Origin: Myxococcales bacterium
GTDB taxonomy: Bacteria > Myxococcota_A > Polyangia > Polyangiales > Polyangiaceae
Assembly (NCBI GenBank): GCA_016794345.1
Contig: JAEUKE010000192.1
Coordinates: 1-64,000 of the forward strand
Direction: 5' to 3'
Length of the DNA stretch: 64,000 nucleotides
In this document: positions 2,100 to 51,769 of the stretch, piece by piece
How the letters are laid out: each line of letters begins with the position of its first letter
Numbering within the stretch: position 1 is the first letter of the stretch
The notes under the pieces: model-generated
What the model saw: only the letters and a program-made list of their open reading frames with translations
What the model was told of the DNA's origin: nothing
Databases searched by the model: none
Program-made: the position numbers and the translations under genes

Positions 2100-3200
2100 T
2101 CACCTGTTGCGAGCGCGCGCCCAATCCACCGCGGCGCGCGGGCGCAAGATGCCCGCGCCCTGCACCTCGTCGGCCACGTCGCGGAGCTTCGCGGCCGTCT
2201 CACACAGGCCGTGTTTGATGTCCGCCGGCGTGAGCCCGGGCGCGACCTCGAGCATCTGCGCGGCGACGCTCGCCGCGATGGGCGACGCGAACGACGTGCC
2301 GTCCACGTGCTGGTAGTCGGGCGAGATGTACTTCTGCTTCGCGATCCGTCCGCCGACCGCGCGCATGAGCTCGCCGATCTCGGCGCGCTCCGCCGGAGTG
2401 GACAGCGAGTGTCGCTCCGAGAAGCCGTGCTCGGCGCTGAGCTCCTCCAGGATGCTGAGCGTCTGGAAGAGCGGCGCAGCCTCGCGCGCGGTCAGCGTCC
2501 CCGGCAGCATGGGCGCGGGGACCCAGATCGCGGGTGCGAGGAGGTCGGGCTTGCCGACTCCAGTCTTCGAGCCGTGGCTGGAGGGCCAGACACGATCGTT
2601 GTCCGAGTCGGGTGAGAAGCGGTCGTGTTGGCCGCCCACGGTGATCGCGCTGGGCGAAGAGCCCGGCGGGTTCACGTGGCGTCCGGGCACATTGCCGGCC
2701 GCCGCGAACACGGTGATGCCAGCAGCGACGACCTCCTCCACGGCGCGCTCGACGTCGGCGTAAGCCGGGTCACCGTCGTTGACGCCGAGCGAGACGTTCA
2801 AGATGCGGATATTCAGCTCGGGGTACCGGAGCGGGAAGCGGAGCGCGTGTGCGACGTGTTGCCCCATCACGCGCCCGCCGTCGACGCCGGCCTTGATCAG
2901 CACGACCTCCGCATCGCTCGCGATGCCGCGGTAGCTGCCGCCGGAGCGGTACCCGTTCCCGCAGGCGGAGCACGCCGTCATCGTCCCGTGCCAGCTCGAG
3001 GTCTGTGGGCTAAAGAAGTCTCGTCCCTCGGGGACGTCGACGGTCGCGTCGGCGTAGACCTTGATGCGACGCTTCGGGCGCATCAGGTCCGGGTGCGGAT
3101 AGAAGCCCACGTCCACGAACGCCATGACGATGCCCTCGCCCGTGACGTCGGGGTAGGCGTCGAGGCGCTCCGGAATGGAGAGAAGCTGAGGTCGTGCCAA
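2100..3200 (-). CDS. subtilisin-like serine protease (S8 family)
   Basis: A 366-residue subtilase. The catalytic triad is readable: Asp30 in AFVDVGFYPHPDL, His71 in SSWHGT and Ser303 in DGTSFASPIAA, with the oxyanion Asn170 in FAAAGN. There is no signal peptide and no long pro-region before Asp30, so it probably acts in the cytoplasm without the usual inhibitory propeptide. An insert of about 70 residues (about 230-298) precedes the serine block and does not look like the standard core. It is the second gene of a likely two-gene unit, starting 12 nt after the alpha/beta hydrolase upstream. The substrate is unknown. Confidence 0.88.
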   Translation of the reverse strand: MARPQLLSIPERLDAYPDVTGEGIVMAFVDVGFYPHPDLMRPKRRIKVYADATVDVPEGRDFFSPQTSSWHGTMTACSACGNGYRSGGSYRGIASDAEVVLIKAGVDGGRVMGQHVAHALRFPLRYPELNIRILNVSLGVNDGDPAYADVERAVEEVVAAGITVFAAAGNVPGRHVNPPGSSPSAITVGGQHDRFSPDSDNDRVWPSSHGSKTGVGKPDLLAPAIWVPAPMLPGTLTAREAAPLFQTLSILEELSAEHGFSERHSLSTPAERAEIGELMRAVGGRIAKQKYISPDYQHVDGTSFASPIAASVAAQMLEVAPGLTPADIKHGLCETAAKLRDVADEVQGAGILRPRAAVDWARARNR

Positions 3201-3212
3201 GTCGCGGTGCTC

Positions 3213-4115
3213 CTAGTCGGCGGTGCGGGAGGTTGGGGGAAGAAGGGACTCGATGAACGGACGAACCAGCGCGATGCACGCGTCGGCTCGCTCGAGGTGC
3301 GGCGAGTGCTCGGCCTCGATGATCTTCAGCTCGGCGCGGCGCATCCGCGCCGCCGCCTGCATCGCGACCGGCAGCGGGAAGGCGTCGTCCGCCCGACCCC
3401 ACACGAGGAGCGTGGGCGCGTCGATCTCGCCGAGCCGCGCCGCCCGCTCGAACGCTCCGCCGACGAGCGGTACGAGTCGGTCGAACGCCTCCTTCGCCTG
3501 AGGGCGGCCGCCGCGAACCGAGTGGAGCTCGCGGCGCAGCCGATCGATCTCGGACCCTCCCGCGCGTCGCACGAACGACGTCAGGCGGCTGAGGCGCTCG
3601 GGCCCCGCTCGGAGATAGAGCCGCGCGCGCGGCGAGATGACGGGCGAGAGCCCCATCGCCCCGATCAGCACGAGGCCGCGGACGTCCGCGCGACCACGCA
3701 GCGCGGTCTCGATCGCGACGAGCGCGCCAAGCGAGTGACCGACGAGGACCACGGGGCCCTCCGCGATCGCGATCTGCTCGACTGGGTCGGCGAAGAACCG
3801 GAGCCCTGCCTCGACCGAGCCATCCGCGAGCGGTGCGGCGCCCGAGTGACCGAAGCCCGGCAGGTCGACCGCGACCGTACGGGTCAGCGTCGCAAAGGCC
3901 GCGAGCCAGGCCGCCCAGACCGAAGCGGCGTGCCCTCGACCGTGGAGAAAGAGGAGCGCCGGGCGCCCTGCGATCGGCGAGCTCTCGAGGGAGCGCAACG
4001 CGACCCCCGCCGCCAGGCGCGGGCGGACACGAACGGCAGGCTCGAGCCGCCCGAGGATGGCGACCTCGACGGGCCCGGGGCGCGAGACCGCCGTGTAGAT
4101 GATGCCTGACTCCAT
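3213..4115 (-). CDS. alpha/beta hydrolase
   Basis: A 300-residue alpha/beta hydrolase. It shows the oxyanion segment FLHGRGH, the nucleophile elbow GHSLG at about residues 125-129, an acid in the WGRADDAF segment and a late His in EHSPHLER. This set is typical of esterases and haloperoxidase-like enzymes of the family. The first about 50 residues are an N-terminal extension without a signal peptide. It is followed after 12 nt by the subtilase, so the two hydrolases are probably cotranscribed. The substrate cannot be told from the sequence. Confidence 0.85.
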   Translation of the reverse strand: MESGIIYTAVSRPGPVEVAILGRLEPAVRVRPRLAAGVALRSLESSPIAGRPALLFLHGRGHAASVWAAWLAAFATLTRTVAVDLPGFGHSGAAPLADGSVEAGLRFFADPVEQIAIAEGPVVLVGHSLGALVAIETALRGRADVRGLVLIGAMGLSPVISPRARLYLRAGPERLSRLTSFVRRAGGSEIDRLRRELHSVRGGRPQAKEAFDRLVPLVGGAFERAARLGEIDAPTLLVWGRADDAFPLPVAMQAAARMRRAELKIIEAEHSPHLERADACIALVRPFIESLLPPTSRTAD

Positions 4116-43128: not shown

Positions 43129-43980
43129 TCAGATCGAGACGCGGGCCTCCAGCCCGAGCGCTCGGACCCGCGCGGCAAGGGCCTGCATCCACGCGGAGTC
43201 GAGCGCGGCCAGCTCCGGGGCCTCCGGCTGGTAAGAAGGCCGAGCCAGGGTGTAGAGGTGCACGCCGCACAAGGGGACGCCGTCGCGCACGAGCCCGGCG
43301 ATGGCTTCGAGCCACGGCGCGAGCTCCGACTCGGCGGGGGGAGCCCCGCGCCTCGCGAAGAAACAGGCCTGGATCCACGTCGGGCAGACGGCCGCACAGG
43401 CGGCGAGGCGCTCGAGGTGGCGCTCCGGCGAGACCGGCGTCCCGTTGGTGTCGCGCAGACCTTCGCGGGTCGCGCGATCCAGCTTGAACCACACGACCCC
43501 CCCCTGGCTCGCGAGCGTCTTCAGCGCGGACTGGATGCGCGGACTGCCCGCGCGGGTTCCGTTCGTGATGAGGATGATGGGCACCCGGAGCCCCGCCTTG
43601 GCGAGCGCACGCGCGACCACCTCGACGGCCGCGCCGAAGTCAGGCGAGGTCGTGGGCTCGCCGTCGCCGGAGAACGCGACGTCCACCACGGGCGGGACCG
43701 GCCCGGCGCCGTCGAAGAGCTCGCCCGAGCCTGCGGCGGCGATGACGCTGTCGAGCTCGGCCTCGAGCTTGGCGAGATCGACCGGCGGGCCCTTGCCCCG
43801 CACGAGCCCCGGGACCTGGCAATACACGCAGCGCCAGTTGCACGCCTTGTTCGTGCTGAGGTTCACCCCGATGGAGACGCCGCCCGCGCGGCGCGACAGC
43901 ACCGCATAGACGTAGGTGAGCCCTGCCTCCGCAGAGTCGTGCGTCTTCGTCGTCAGGTGGACGCGGCGAGGCTTCGGCAT
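43129..43980 (-). CDS. radical SAM enzyme (COG0731-like)
   Basis: 283 residues from ATG 43980. The CxxxCxxC cluster motif is CNWRCVYCQ (Cys47, 51, 54). FSGDGEPTTSPDF is a GGE-type SAM-binding motif and ITNGT follows. The pattern resembles COG0731 Fe-S oxidoreductases, a group that includes wybutosine-related enzymes but whose bacterial members mostly lack assigned substrates. It is cytosolic. It is divergent from the lipoprotein hydrolase gene with 46 bp between starts, and upstream of the SH3-like lipoprotein. Confidence 0.82.
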   Translation of the reverse strand: MPKPRRVHLTTKTHDSAEAGLTYVYAVLSRRAGGVSIGVNLSTNKACNWRCVYCQVPGLVRGKGPPVDLAKLEAELDSVIAAAGSGELFDGAGPVPPVVDVAFSGDGEPTTSPDFGAAVEVVARALAKAGLRVPIILITNGTRAGSPRIQSALKTLASQGGVVWFKLDRATREGLRDTNGTPVSPERHLERLAACAAVCPTWIQACFFARRGAPPAESELAPWLEAIAGLVRDGVPLCGVHLYTLARPSYQPEAPELAALDSAWMQALAARVRALGLEARVSI

Positions 43981-44026
43981 CGGGCGCGCGCACTGTAACC
44001 TGCCGTCCTCCCGGGAGAGCGAGCCG

Positions 44027-45166
44027 ATGTCGAATGTCACGCAAGATCACGGTCGCGCAAGGACGCGAGCAGCAGCACACCCGAAGCTCCTGCTCTTTGC
44101 ATCCATCCTGGTGGCGACCGCCTGCGACGACGAAGGCCGGGGCGAGAGCGGAGCGGGCGCCGGGACCGCGGCGAACGGTGGGGCCGACTCCACCGGTCAG
44201 GGACCGGGGACCAGCCAGGGCAGCACGACCGGGCAGGGCGGCACGACCTCGCAAGGGAGCACGACCGGCCAGGGCGGCAGCTCGACCTCGAGCGCCGGCT
44301 CGGGCGGGGGTGGAGGGCCCGACATCCAGGACCCCGGCACGATGACGTCGGATTCGAGGATCTACACGACCGACGGGACCGAATACGTGATCGACGAGGT
44401 CGGGGATGCGTTCGCGCATGCGGCGGCGAGCGCCACCGATAACCTCGTGTTTTACGTCCATGGTCGCGGCTGTGGCGGCGGTGGCGAACCGCAGAAATCG
44501 CTCTCCGAGGCGATGCCCGAGCTCGAGAGCGACTACGGCTCGCGAGCAATCCTCTTCAACTGGCAGGGCTCCGACGTCGGCTGTCCGCTCGGCTTCCCCG
44601 AGGATCAGGCGCGCGCGGCTGGTCCGGCGTTCGCCCACACGCTCCACAAGCTCGCGTTCTACAAGGCGACCCACCCGGGCGCGTTCACGGGGCTGAAGCT
44701 GACGCTCATCACCCACAGCATGGGGAGCTTCCTCCTGGAGGAGGCCATGCTGACCAACGCGACGCCGCTTCCCGCCACGCTCTTCGACACCGCCATGATC
44801 GGGTCGGCCGCGTCGGCGCGCGCCACGCACGCTGCGTGGGTGTCACAGGTGGCGCTCTCACCTGTCCTCTACGTCAGCCTGAACGCCGGTGACAACGTCC
44901 TCACGGCCGCGTCGGCGCTCGGCGGCGTGCGCCTCGGCAAGAACGTCGACGGCGAGCCCCTCGCGGCGAACGCGCTCTACGTGGACTTCTCCGCGTCGTC
45001 GGTGAACCACGCCTACTACCTGCACGGCGGCCAAGACGGCGCCCACATGACAGCCTTCTACGACACGATCATGAACGGCCTGGTCTTCGACTTCCAGTCG
45101 GCCGCCGGCATCGCGTCGGTGGAGGCGCGCGACGGAACCTTCGTCTACCACTTCGACGGACAGTGA
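44027..45166 (+). CDS. alpha/beta-hydrolase lipoprotein
   Basis: 379 residues from ATG 44027. The signal peptide ends in VATAC (lipobox), followed by a Gly/Ser/Thr/Gln linker with a near-repeat (GSTTGQGGTTSQGSTTGQGG). The mature domain contains VFYVHGRGCG and the nucleophile elbow THSMGS, as in DUF900-like and lipase-type alpha/beta hydrolases. It is probably an outer-membrane-anchored esterase or thioesterase, substrate unknown. TAACCT at 43996 is a -10-like hexamer about 25 nt upstream. Confidence 0.75.
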   Translation: MSNVTQDHGRARTRAAAHPKLLLFASILVATACDDEGRGESGAGAGTAANGGADSTGQGPGTSQGSTTGQGGTTSQGSTTGQGGSSTSSAGSGGGGGPDIQDPGTMTSDSRIYTTDGTEYVIDEVGDAFAHAAASATDNLVFYVHGRGCGGGGEPQKSLSEAMPELESDYGSRAILFNWQGSDVGCPLGFPEDQARAAGPAFAHTLHKLAFYKATHPGAFTGLKLTLITHSMGSFLLEEAMLTNATPLPATLFDTAMIGSAASARATHAAWVSQVALSPVLYVSLNAGDNVLTAASALGGVRLGKNVDGEPLAANALYVDFSASSVNHAYYLHGGQDGAHMTAFYDTIMNGLVFDFQSAAGIASVEARDGTFVYHFDGQ

Positions 45167-45315: not shown

Positions 45316-45693
45316 TCACCGCGCCTTCAGGCCATCGAGCACGAGGCCCCAGAACGGCGGCGTCTCTCCGTTCGAGAAGCGCCACCCGACGTGGGTCGAG
45401 CAGCCGGCGCACACGACGACGAGCCATCGGTGCCGCGGGAACCAGGGGAACTCGTCGCTCTCGGCGCCGACGCCGCGCGCGCCGTCGGCCCGGGCGAAGC
45501 AGCCGATGCGGAAAGGGAACCCCGCCGGGTTGACCCGATCGTGGACGTGTGTGCCGAACCGCTCGACGCGGTCGCGCTCCCGGGTGATCGCCGCGCCGCA
45601 ACGCGCGCAGACGAGCGTGTCGTCCTCCGCGGCGGTCGCGTCGTGAATGGGCGCTGCGTCGTGAGTGCTCGCCGGCTTCTCGTCTTCGAGCAC
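45316..45693 (-). CDS. stand-alone CULT-domain protein (cereblon-like)
   Basis: 125 residues from GTG 45693. After a disordered Asp/Ala-rich start it is one compact domain with CARC (Cys29, 32) and CAGC (Cys95, 98) zinc ligands and three tryptophans, W84, W90 and W104, spaced 6 and 14 residues. Human cereblon's thalidomide-binding cage (W380, W386, W400; zinc Cys 323, 326, 391, 394) has the same spacing, and the zinc-to-Trp spacing also agrees. The size and layout resemble the single-domain Magnetospirillum CULT protein. It should bind uracil- or glutarimide-like ligands. The cellular role is unknown. It lies 18 nt after a GNAT gene. Confidence 0.85.
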   Translation of the reverse strand: MLEDEKPASTHDAAPIHDATAAEDDTLVCARCGAAITRERDRVERFGTHVHDRVNPAGFPFRIGCFARADGARGVGAESDEFPWFPRHRWLVVVCAGCSTHVGWRFSNGETPPFWGLVLDGLKAR

Positions 45694-45711: not shown

Positions 45712-46203
45712 TCACGCGATGGGCTTGAACATCTCGATCGCGGCCTCGCCGTTGACGTAGCTATCCGGCATTCGAATGACCGGCAGGTAGCCCGTGCGCG
45801 AGAAGAGGCGGCGACCGCGGGCGTTGCCCTCGGCGGTCATGAGCGTCATCACCACGGCGCCCTCCTCCCGCGCGATGGCCTCCGCCCGGCGCGTGAGCGC
45901 GCGACCGACCCCCGCGCCCTGCTCGCGCGGGGAGACGGCGATCGCGTCGAGACGAGCGACGGCCGGCGCCTTCCACGGACCAAACGGACGAGGCAGCCTC
46001 TCGAAGGTGACGATGGCGAAGCCGATCGGCGAACCGTCGCGCTCGACGATCTCCGCGCGAGCGCCCTTGGAGGCGAGCATCGAGCCGAGCGACCGGGCAG
46101 GATCACGCGACCATCGCGCGAACACGCGCCGCCCGATGGAGAGCATGAAGCCGTCGTCTTCTGGCGTGCGGGGCCGAAACCGGAGGCGCTGAGCGAGCCG
46201 CAT
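45712..46203 (-). CDS. GNAT family N-acetyltransferase
   Basis: 163 residues with the acetyl-CoA motif A LDAIAVSPREQGAGVGRAL (Q/RxxGxG/A) and a following helix (RAEAIAREEGAVVMTLMT). The N-terminus FRPRTPEDDGFMLSIGR is normal for single-domain GNATs. The substrate is unknown. It is followed 18 nt later by the CULT gene on the same strand, suggesting a shared transcript; a link between the acetylated product and the CULT ligand pocket is speculation. TAGGCT sits 9 nt before the ATG. Confidence 0.85.
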   Translation of the reverse strand: MRLAQRLRFRPRTPEDDGFMLSIGRRVFARWSRDPARSLGSMLASKGARAEIVERDGSPIGFAIVTFERLPRPFGPWKAPAVARLDAIAVSPREQGAGVGRALTRRAEAIAREEGAVVMTLMTAEGNARGRRLFSRTGYLPVIRMPDSYVNGEAAIEMFKPIA

Positions 46204-48315: not shown

Positions 48316-49629
48316 ATGCGGCGTCAGACCGGAACAGCCCTCGCCCTCTCGGGAGCGATCGTGCTCCGGGCGTCGCTTGGCGCAGCGGCGCCCGGCGTCG
48401 ACGAGCGCGTTCCCCACGTCGAGGCCTCGTTTGCGAACGTGGGCCTCCGGCCGGAAGGAACATTTTCACGCGTCTGCGCGGCCGAGGCGGACGTCTGCGT
48501 GCATTTCGCGGCCCCGACCAACCGGGACGCGGCGTCCGAGGTCCTCGCGGCGGGCGCACGCGCGCTCCAGGGCCTCGCGGCGCTGCGCTTGCCGGGCCCG
48601 CTGCCCGACACGCCGCGCGGCGGAGACGGCGGCCTCGACATCTATCTCGTGGGCGATGCGCCCGCGGTCGCACACGGGGACGCGGGCGCGACCGGGACGG
48701 GGTTCGACCGAGCGAGCGCGTTCGTCGTCGCACCGGCACACGGGATCGTCAGCTGCGTCGAGGCGCAGCAGCTCGCCTCCGCGATCGGCGCGGCCGCCTT
48801 GCTCGGACGAGACGCAGCGCTCGACCCGAGCTCCCTCGCCATGCTCGCCGATCACACGGGCACCCTGCTCGAGCCTTGCACCCTCCGCGAGATGGAGGAG
48901 ATCGATCTCGCCCAGCGCGCACCGAACCGCACCTTCGTCGGCCCGCTCGGCTCAGGGGCGCCCGGCAGCTTCTTGTTCCCGCGGCTGCTCGAGGAGAAAT
49001 ACGGAACGGGAGAGCCCGGGAAGCTCACCTTCGCGCTCGCGTCGATCGCGGCCCAGAAGTCGCCCACGCTCGTCGACGAGCCCGACCCGTTCGACTCGCT
49101 GCGGATCACGCAGAAGGCGAACCGGTCGTCGCTCGCCGACAACGTCCTCGAGCTGATGGTCGCGCGCGCCTTCCTCGGCGATCGGAGCGACGAGACCCAG
49201 CTCGCGGACGTCGCGAAGTACGGCTCGTTCGGGCGCGTGCGCTTCGAGTGGGCGGTGCCACACGCGAGCCTGCCTCGGCGGCTCGCCCAGACTCGCCCGG
49301 TGGAGCCGCTCGGCGCGGCCTACATCTGGCTCGATCTCGCCGGCGCGTCGCCGGACGCGGAGCTCACCTTCCTCGCGGAGTGGGAGGAGCCGGTCGCGTT
49401 CCGGTGGGCGCTCGTGAAGGTGGACGACAAGGGCTCACCCCTCGCGACGCTCGAGGTGGTGCCCGTGCTCGGGCAGACGAAGATCGAGAAGACCGTGCGC
49501 GATCTCTCCGGTGCCCGAGGCGTCGTCATCGTCGGCGTGAACGAGGGCGAATCGCGTCGCGACGACCCCTTCGATCCTGGCCAGCCGCGCGAGCCGGGGC
49601 ACGGCTGGGTCGTCAGCCTCTATCGTTGA
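48316..49629 (+). CDS. secreted protein of unknown function
   Basis: 437 residues with an N-terminal signal peptide (TALALSGAIVLRASLGAAAPG). The mature protein has paired cysteines (RVCAAEADVCVHF) and an acidic/hydrophobic rhythm. The middle (LALLADHT-like SLAMLADHTGTLLEP, EEKYGTGEPGKLTFALASIAAQKS) recalls the active-site-side helices of metallopeptidase-like proteins, but no HExxH is visible. I do not recognise the family. Its 3' end overlaps the TetR gene by 17 bp on the opposite strand. Confidence 0.6.
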   Translation: MRRQTGTALALSGAIVLRASLGAAAPGVDERVPHVEASFANVGLRPEGTFSRVCAAEADVCVHFAAPTNRDAASEVLAAGARALQGLAALRLPGPLPDTPRGGDGGLDIYLVGDAPAVAHGDAGATGTGFDRASAFVVAPAHGIVSCVEAQQLASAIGAAALLGRDAALDPSSLAMLADHTGTLLEPCTLREMEEIDLAQRAPNRTFVGPLGSGAPGSFLFPRLLEEKYGTGEPGKLTFALASIAAQKSPTLVDEPDPFDSLRITQKANRSSLADNVLELMVARAFLGDRSDETQLADVAKYGSFGRVRFEWAVPHASLPRRLAQTRPVEPLGAAYIWLDLAGASPDAELTFLAEWEEPVAFRWALVKVDDKGSPLATLEVVPVLGQTKIEKTVRDLSGARGVVIVGVNEGESRRDDPFDPGQPREPGHGWVVSLYR

Positions 49630-50305
49630 GCACCGCCTCCAAGTACGCCCGAGCCATGACCTTCGTCTCGGCCACGAGCCGCTTGGCCTCGGAATCCTTC
49701 CGGCGGACCGCCACGAAGAGCAGCGCCGAGATCATCTCGACGAGCGCGGACGCGACGACGACGCGGCGCGCGGGCGAGACGTTCGGAGCGATGAAGCCGA
49801 TGAACTCGGCGCCCCGCGCCGCCATCACCTGGTTCAGCTTGTCGCCCGCGTCGAGCATCTCTGCCGTGATCGACTGGTGGACCCACACGGCGCGAAAGCC
49901 GGGCAGATCGCAGTGGAAGCGCCAGAACGCCTCGATGAGCTCGTCGAGCAAAACCGGCCAGGGCCGCTCGAGCGCGCCCGCAGCGAGCAAGGTCTCGAGG
50001 AGCCCCTGCGCGCGATCCAGGTACCGCGTGCGGAGCGCGGCGAAGAGCGCCTTCTTGTTGGGGAAGAACTGGTAGAGGCTGCCGATCGAGGTCTCCGCTC
50101 GCGCGGCGATCTCCTCCATTGTCGCGGCGTCGTACCCCATCGCCGCGAAGACCGTGTCCGCCACGTCGAGGATCCGCTCGAGCCGCGCCTTGCTCCGCTC
50201 CTGGGTCGGGACGCGCCGGAGATCGGCCTTTCTTCGCGAGCGCCCTGCAGGACTCTTCGCGGACTTTCTGAGGCTCGGGCGGACCGGCACGTGTGGGTCC
50301 GTCAT
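49613..50305 (-). CDS. TetR family transcriptional regulator
   Basis: A 230-residue regulator with an N-terminal basic extension of about 30 residues. The HTH TMEEIAARAETSIGSLYQFF is a typical TetR recognition helix ending in YxxF. The C-terminal helical part has the TetR ligand-binding/dimer shape. It is divergent from a cytochrome P450 gene, and the 96-bp gap contains a 20-bp palindrome likely to be its operator. It is probably a repressor released by a P450 substrate or product, and may control its own gene too. Confidence 0.9.
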   Translation of the reverse strand: MTDPHVPVRPSLRKSAKSPAGRSRRKADLRRVPTQERSKARLERILDVADTVFAAMGYDAATMEEIAARAETSIGSLYQFFPNKKALFAALRTRYLDRAQGLLETLLAAGALERPWPVLLDELIEAFWRFHCDLPGFRAVWVHQSITAEMLDAGDKLNQVMAARGAEFIGFIAPNVSPARRVVVASALVEMISALLFVAVRRKDSEAKRLVAETKVMARAYLEAVLNDRG

Positions 50306-50401: not shown

Positions 50402-51769
50402 TTGGTCACGACCGCGCTCGTCGCACCCGCCGGCCGCAAGGCCACAGGCCCCAAGGGCCTGCCGCTCATCGGCAGCCTGCTCGACGCCTGGGCCGATCCG
50501 CTCACGCTCATGACGCGGAGCGCGCGCGAGCACGGGGACGTGGCCAAGCTCCGCTTCGCATGGCTCGACTATCACCTGCTGAACGCGCCCGCGGCCGCTC
50601 ACAGGGTCCTGGTCGAGAACGCGAAGGCCTACCACAAGAGCCCCAACTACCAGGGCCTCAAGATCATGCTGGGTCAGGGGCTGCTCACCAGCGAAGGAGA
50701 CTTCTGGCGCAAGCAGCGCCGGCTCGCCCAGCCGGCCTTCCACCGCGACAAGATCGCAGGCTTCGTGAGCACGATGGCCGCCTGCACGACGGACATGCTG
50801 GATCGCTGGGACCGCGAGCGGCCCGCCACGCTGGACGTCCACGCCGAGATGATGCGACTCACCTTCCGCATCGTCGGCAAGACGCTGCTCTCCGCCGACC
50901 TCGAGGCGGACGCCAAGCAGTTCGGGCAAGCGCTCGACGTCGCGATCAAGTGGGCCAACCAATACGTCGAGTCGATCGTCCGGATCCCGCCGTCGATCCC
51001 CACCCCGAAGAACGTCCGCTTCCGGCGAGCGCAGCGGGTCATCGAGAGCGTGGTCATGCGTGTGGTGGAGGAGCGACGCCGGTCCGGGAAAGACGAGCCG
51101 GATCTCCTGTCGATGCTCATGGGCGCGACGGACGAGGCGACGGGCGACGGCATGAGCGACAAGCAGCTGAAGGACGAGCTCCTCACGCTCACGCTCGCCG
51201 GCCACGAGACCACTGCAAATGCTCTCTCGTTCACGTTCTACCTGCTCTCACGCCACCCGGAGGTGCTGCGGCGGCTCCGGGTGGAGGCGCGCACGGTGCT
51301 CGCCGGAAGAGACCCCGCCCTCGAAGACCTCCCTCGCATGCCGTACACCAAGGCTGTCATCGAGGAGGCGCTGCGCCTCTATCCTCCGGCCTGGGTCTTC
51401 GAGCGCATCGCCTTGGAGGACGACGAGGTGCTCGGCTACACGATCCCCAAGGGCGCCATCGTGGCGGTCTCGCCGTGGGTCATGCACCGCTCGCCCGAGC
51501 TGTGGCCCAACCCCGAGGGGTTCGATCCGGCGCGCTTCCTCGAGCCCGATCCGAACCGCCACAAGCTCGCGTACTTGCCCTTCGGCGCGGGTCCTCGCAC
51601 CTGCATCGGCAACGTGTTCGCGCTCACTGAAATGCAGATCATCTTGCCCATCATCGTGCAGCGCGTCGCGCTCGAGCTCGTGCCCGGCACGGAGATCGCG
51701 CTCGATCCGTCGATCACCCTGCGGCCCAAGACGGGCGTACCAATGACGTTGCGCGCCGACGTTCCGTAA
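50402..51769 (+). CDS. cytochrome P450
   Basis: 455 residues from TTG 50402, with AGGAGG 5 nt upstream deciding the start. The I-helix oxygen-binding AGHETT is at 266-271, the K-helix ExxR is E322-A-L-R325, and the haem-binding FGAGPRTCIGN has Cys401. The sequence resembles CYP102-like/fatty-acid-type bacterial P450s (RLYPPAWVFER, MHRSPELWPNPEGFDPARF), so a fatty acid or lipid substrate is plausible. There is no signal peptide. No ferredoxin or reductase gene lies beside it, so redox partners are encoded elsewhere. The divergent TetR gene and operator imply ligand-induced expression. Confidence 0.95.
   Translation: MVTTALVAPAGRKATGPKGLPLIGSLLDAWADPLTLMTRSAREHGDVAKLRFAWLDYHLLNAPAAAHRVLVENAKAYHKSPNYQGLKIMLGQGLLTSEGDFWRKQRRLAQPAFHRDKIAGFVSTMAACTTDMLDRWDRERPATLDVHAEMMRLTFRIVGKTLLSADLEADAKQFGQALDVAIKWANQYVESIVRIPPSIPTPKNVRFRRAQRVIESVVMRVVEERRRSGKDEPDLLSMLMGATDEATGDGMSDKQLKDELLTLTLAGHETTANALSFTFYLLSRHPEVLRRLRVEARTVLAGRDPALEDLPRMPYTKAVIEEALRLYPPAWVFERIALEDDEVLGYTIPKGAIVAVSPWVMHRSPELWPNPEGFDPARFLEPDPNRHKLAYLPFGAGPRTCIGNVFALTEMQIILPIIVQRVALELVPGTEIALDPSITLRPKTGVPMTLRADVP

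Follow-up and report, generated by a model that had tools for sequence, protein, structure and literature searches.

The window, that is, the whole 64,000-nucleotide stretch of DNA analysed here, encodes on its reverse strand a stand-alone CULT-domain protein of 125 amino acids (45316..45693; GTG start at 45693, TGA stop at 45318-45316). The translation contains a first zinc motif, C29-A-R-C32 (CxxC, codons 29-32; 45598..45609, reverse strand), and, across codons 84-106 (45376..45444, reverse strand), the aromatic cage together with a second zinc motif, comprising W84, W90, C95, C98, W104, and F106. Residues 1 to about 25 form a disordered N-terminal tail, and residues 26-125 the beta-tent domain. 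A GNAT acetyltransferase gene (163 aa; 45712..46203, reverse strand; PF00583, E = 4e-12) lies 18 nt upstream in the same direction, a spacing that would be compatible with co-transcription of the two genes. A promoter and terminator scan gave no hit, and in particular no terminator-like site in the gap, although such a scan is uninformative in a GC-rich genome. Downstream, a 416-aa open reading frame on the forward strand without a Pfam family (43916..45166) runs towards CULT and ends about 150 nt short of its stop codon, so that no further gene follows CULT in its unit. Elsewhere in the window are a radical SAM protein (43129-44040, reverse strand; PF04055, E = 7e-11), of which one other genome has a relative no more than 8 kb from its CULT gene (L085), and, judged from the translations, a cytochrome P450-like reading frame (50402-51769, forward strand) beside a divergent TetR-type regulator (49613-50305, reverse strand). 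The P450-like protein likewise has a relative within 8 kb of a CULT gene at one other locus (L145).

Sequence and predicted structure both show the gene product to be a true stand-alone CULT protein whose cage is intact. Among PDB chains, phmmer matched it to the Magnetospirillum gryphiswaldense protein MsCI4 (MGR_0879; 4v2y/4v32) with E-values of 6e-22 to 3e-22 and alignments free of gaps across the cage, and to animal cereblon with E-values of 4e-10 to 5e-7. The sole Pfam-A match was a sub-threshold hit to Yippee-Mis18, with no CULT family match, as is expected for the beta-tent/CULT fold (PMC4287342). An AlphaFold2 model built from a three-sequence alignment reached a pLDDT of 78.5 overall and about 75-93 across the domain. 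Its best structural match was MsCI4 (4v2y, VIA-align Z 16.9, 1.7 Å over 102 residues), and human CRBN (8tnp) superposed about as closely (Z about 16, 1.7 Å over 103 residues). The identity proposed by the first-pass annotation is thus backed by both the phmmer match and the model, including the cage and the likeness to the Magnetospirillum protein. MsCI4, about 39% identical to the window protein, shares its size, single-domain architecture, zinc site, three tryptophans, E81/F82, and NPxG motif. The thalidomide-binding domain of human CRBN shares the fold, the aromatic cage, and a phenylalanine floor at 28% identity, but the window protein, with only its disordered tail of about 25 residues ahead of the domain, lacks the LON-like N-terminal domain of cereblon proper as well as the DDB1-binding region, and bacteria lack the ubiquitin ligase. 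Bacterial CULT proteins that stand alone had been described before, and this is a new protein within a known family.

The residues that define the ligand site are strongly conserved. Across 70 homologues, the cage tryptophans were retained in 69 (W84), 70 (W90), and 69 (W104) sequences, and each of the zinc cysteines C29/C32 and C95/C98 in 69-70, so that the loss of tryptophans considered in the initial reading is not seen. The exceptions are confined to two divergent or degenerate copies: L108 (G424), in which phenylalanine replaces the first cage tryptophan, and L109 (G517), which lacks the third cage tryptophan and, in frame, the first zinc pair. N55, P56, G58, F85, H101, and G103 were nearly as stable as the tryptophans. 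The spacing of the latter, W-x5-W-x13-W (6 and 14 residues), equals that of human W380/W386/W400, as first proposed. The same claim for the zinc pairs was slightly overstated: C95/C98 is in the human register, whereas C29/C32 lies two residues nearer the cage than its human counterpart.

Further known cage residues are also present, namely N55 and P56 (within the NPxG motif N55-P56-A57-G58), E81, F82, and F106, and among the ligand-contact residues F82, W84, W90, and W104 are in place. At the cage floor, F106 corresponds to human F402, whereas MsCI4 has Tyr101, which contributes an extra hydrogen bond to glutarimide (PMC8900816). Human H378 is replaced by F82, G383 by R87, and Y384 by H88; where the window protein has R87-H88, MsCI4 has Gly-Tyr83, and most relatives have glycine followed by tyrosine or another aromatic residue. 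Arginine and histidine occur at these two positions in only 2 and 8 of the 70 homologues, respectively, and P83, which also departs from most relatives, in 7. Human Y384 (MsCI4 Y83) aids folding of the site, and a Y/W double mutant fails to bind (PMC4449219). Because H88 takes the place of this tyrosine, ligand affinity may be altered in the window protein, and R87 and H88 together might shift its ligand preference.

Stand-alone bacterial CULT proteins were described in 2015, chiefly from delta-proteobacteria (PMC4287342). We found CULT in 52 of 317 genomes of the class, in 31 of 377 genomes sampled from the phylum, and, by way of locus L002, in 44 of 195 genomes of another phylum-level group. 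Two of the three members of the window's genus carry the gene. An origin from mobile elements was rejected, as searches of phages, plasmids, and viral contigs returned no CULT relative.

The neighbouring GNAT had been taken as a clue to function, pointing to a modified-metabolite or degron-like role. On this reading CULT and the acetyltransferase would be a functional pair, with CULT binding, for example, a metabolite or protein that the GNAT has N-acetylated or otherwise modified. The 18-nt gap and common direction in the window speak for it, as does an Eis-like GNAT about 50 bp after CULT in several large-genome relatives. Yet the association is not conserved. In G002, the one other member of the genus that carries CULT, this gene lies on contig C50, far from the contig ends, while the GNAT orthologue (49% identity) is on contig C22; the third member yielded no homologue of either. 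Of 83 scanned same-direction genes adjoining CULT, five encode a GNAT domain: the window's and four Eis-like proteins from one large-genome group. GNATs therefore adjoin CULT in 2 of about 71 CULT lineages, and the two differ in type. The number expected by chance is about one lineage, a rough figure resting on a GNAT gene share that we took to be 0.7%. Since the two genes are apart in G002 and the recurrence of the pairing is roughly at chance level, it provides no evidence of function; we dropped the GNAT as a clue and consider a functional pair very unlikely. The gene order in the large-genome relatives is FHA-domain protein (about 180 aa), CULT, and Eis-like GNAT with an SCP2 domain (about 394 aa), found at loci L116, L123, L124, L127, and L129 (genomes G702, G716, G722, G712, and G728).

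A different association emerged from a survey of 113 CULT loci, in which genes were called in both flanks, each of at most 8 kb, and all neighbours were clustered without prior choice of families. CULT genes are recurrently linked to clpS and clpA. Counting CULT lineages as clusters at 62% identity (71 in total), the most recurrent neighbour was clpA, found in six lineages plus, as a fragment at a contig end, in L002 (G590), for a total of seven; clpS came second, and every other neighbour family occurred in at most three. Two arrangements were seen. In G017, G025, and G134, CULT stands in tandem upstream of clpS and clpA on the same strand, clpS starting 12, 21, and 23 bp, respectively, after the CULT stop, and in G017 an oppositely oriented gene lies between clpS and clpA. 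At the other four loci CULT is convergent with clpA, at a distance of 12 bp between stops in G591, and of 1.4 kb in G590, 2.3 kb in G595, and 3.3 kb in G593. Pfam searches confirmed ClpS in the three tandem copies (E = 2e-32, 2e-32, and 4e-30) and the ClpA-type combination Clp_N, AAA_2, and D2-small at L041, L054, and L110. The clpS and clpA neighbours were also confirmed by tblastn, from which the G017 clpS derives, the remaining gene calls being GC3-based. Searching the whole genomes for ClpS led to the same linkage, with a single ClpS detected in each of the tandem genomes.

Most CULT genes are not near clpS, the linked loci being 7 of 113. In the window's own genome (G000), ClpS is on contig C203 and CULT on C246, and the two are not adjacent; in G419, the two genes share a contig but are 13 kb apart, and this genome was left out of the count. 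The linkage nevertheless exceeds chance expectation. Assuming 8-kb flanks and about 1.2 ClpS per 8.3-Mb genome, chance would give 0.26 linked loci in 113, or 0.16 when the 71 lineages are counted instead, compared with the seven seen (P about 1e-8 or lower if the loci are taken as independent). In the CULT tree, the convergent loci form a moderately supported group and the branching of the tandem loci is not resolved, giving at least two clades overall, and we therefore also made a conservative count of two independent events, for which P is about 0.01. Co-occurrence of CULT and ClpS across genomes of the class was weak (49 of 52 versus 224 of 265, two-sided p = 0.08), and we did not use it as support. 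Nor did we count ClpB, which lies 5 kb from CULT in G038 and G314, both of one genus. Lon substrate-binding genes served as a control, suggested by cereblon's own LON domain and present in one to seven copies per genome; none lay near CULT among the matches listed. The CULT-clpSA linkage appears to be previously unreported, no report having been found in a literature search whose incompleteness precludes proof of novelty.

Bacterial CULT proteins have served since 2014 as crystallographic stand-ins for the thalidomide target, and our literature search found no established biological role for them. Human cereblon is described as reading C-terminal cyclic imides derived from Asn or Gln as a degron (PMC12117711, citing Ichikawa 2022), and in human cells PCMT1 forms cyclic-imide ends on C-terminal Asn (PMC11974815). 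Because human cereblon reads such ends as degrons, we propose that bacterial CULT proteins may do so as well. The window protein would then be a small protein of the cytoplasm that reads cyclic-imide rings by means of its CULT domain. Like human cereblon, it would hold in its three-tryptophan cage the aspartimide or glutarimide ring that arises at the C-terminal end when proteins age or are cleaved. It would act as a substrate adaptor in protein quality control, passing these proteins to a Clp protease, of which ClpAP is the likeliest, and would work beside ClpS, the N-degron adaptor. This is the simplest model joining the cage, the fold, the disordered tail, and the gene linkage. From these features we infer a cyclic-imide ligand, a contact with ClpA, and degradation of the bound protein, and we hold this reading of CULT, although tentatively, at somewhat short of an even chance. 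Copies encoded far from clpSA would share the Clp role by extrapolation; that of the window is one of these, and homology is what would connect it to Clp. A little less probable still is the more general proposal that bacterial CULT proteins are C-degron adaptors delivering C-terminal cyclic imides, on damaged or PCMT-processed proteins, to ClpAP, the cereblon degron pathway being older than ubiquitin and first coupled to an AAA+ protease.

The comparison with ClpS concerns mode of action alone, as the two folds are unrelated. ClpS, too, is small, has one domain and a disordered tail at its N-terminus, and is encoded beside clpA; CULT adjoins these genes in some of the relatives examined. ClpS hands substrates to ClpAP via its disordered N-terminal extension, residues 2-26 (PMC9663308), and the likeness of the two tails is suggestive only. 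Whereas ClpS reads the N-terminal residue, CULT would read a chemically modified C-terminus.

Two other readings of CULT, each doubtful though far from negligible, bear on the meaning of the linkage itself. CULT could be a small-molecule sensor, its cage binding uracil, uridine, dihydrouracil, hydantoin, or a similar cyclic imide or ureide, with ligand-induced folding signalling to a partner and the clp linkage being incidental or regulatory. MsCI4 does hold uridine or deoxyuridine in its cage, with low micromolar affinity, and binding makes it fold (PMC4449219), RutR holds uracil in a similar cage (PMC4287342), and the neighbours of CULT are otherwise diverse. The ligands reported for bacterial CULT proteins in the literature examined are of the uridine and thalidomide families and not peptides (PMC4449219), which counts against the reading of peptide ends. 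However, no biological context was found for uridine recognition (PMC4449219), and among the neighbours listed clpSA recurs, but no family belonging to a pyrimidine or hydantoin pathway. The linkage could equally be an inherited or accidental position, in which an ancestral CULT gene stood by clpSA, two clades kept the placement, and CULT works elsewhere. With 7 of 113 loci linked, as few as two clades involved, and a poorly resolved tree, such an origin would be in keeping with the data. Against it, two distinct arrangements (tandem upstream and convergent downstream) surround the same gene pair in two phylum-level groups, the CULT proteins concerned are less than 62% identical, and the seven loci have almost no other gene in common beyond CULT, clpS, and clpA.

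An enzymatic role is the least probable of the readings considered, and we give it very little weight. CULT would in this case act on cyclic imides or oxidised groups, for instance as a cyclic-imide hydrolase repairing protein ends, and the beta-tent fold does include the enzymes MsrB and GFA (PMC4287342). The residues conserved among the 70 homologues, however, are those of the cage and the structural zinc site, with no further conserved catalytic residue evident, and many MsCI4 crystals carry glutarimide compounds in the cage. While the degron-like role originally suggested loses its basis in the GNAT, it gains support from a separate source, the recurrent linkage to clpS-clpA.

Together with the cyclic-imide degron of human cereblon (2022), this linkage makes a role for CULT in tagging damaged proteins for degradation directly testable. 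If the adaptor reading is true, bacteria would have a code for C-terminal damage, read by an adaptor parallel to ClpS. The degron reading of cereblon would then have originated in ATP-dependent proteolysis, before ubiquitin, and bacteria would offer a route of targeted degradation under the control of glutarimide compounds.

One further neighbour fits the cyclic-imide model. In G539 (L099), a PCMT-family gene (PF01135, E = 3e-65; 2714-3520, reverse strand, in raw locus coordinates) lies directly upstream of CULT. A tblastn search across the CULT loci gave no other PCMT next to CULT, and we keep this single case as a lead. The L099 protein, an isoaspartate methyltransferase of the PCMT family, carries a lipoprotein-like signal. 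Among the remaining neighbours, an RNB-domain exoribonuclease follows CULT at L052, L058, and L069 (G105, G103, and G104), all from one genus.
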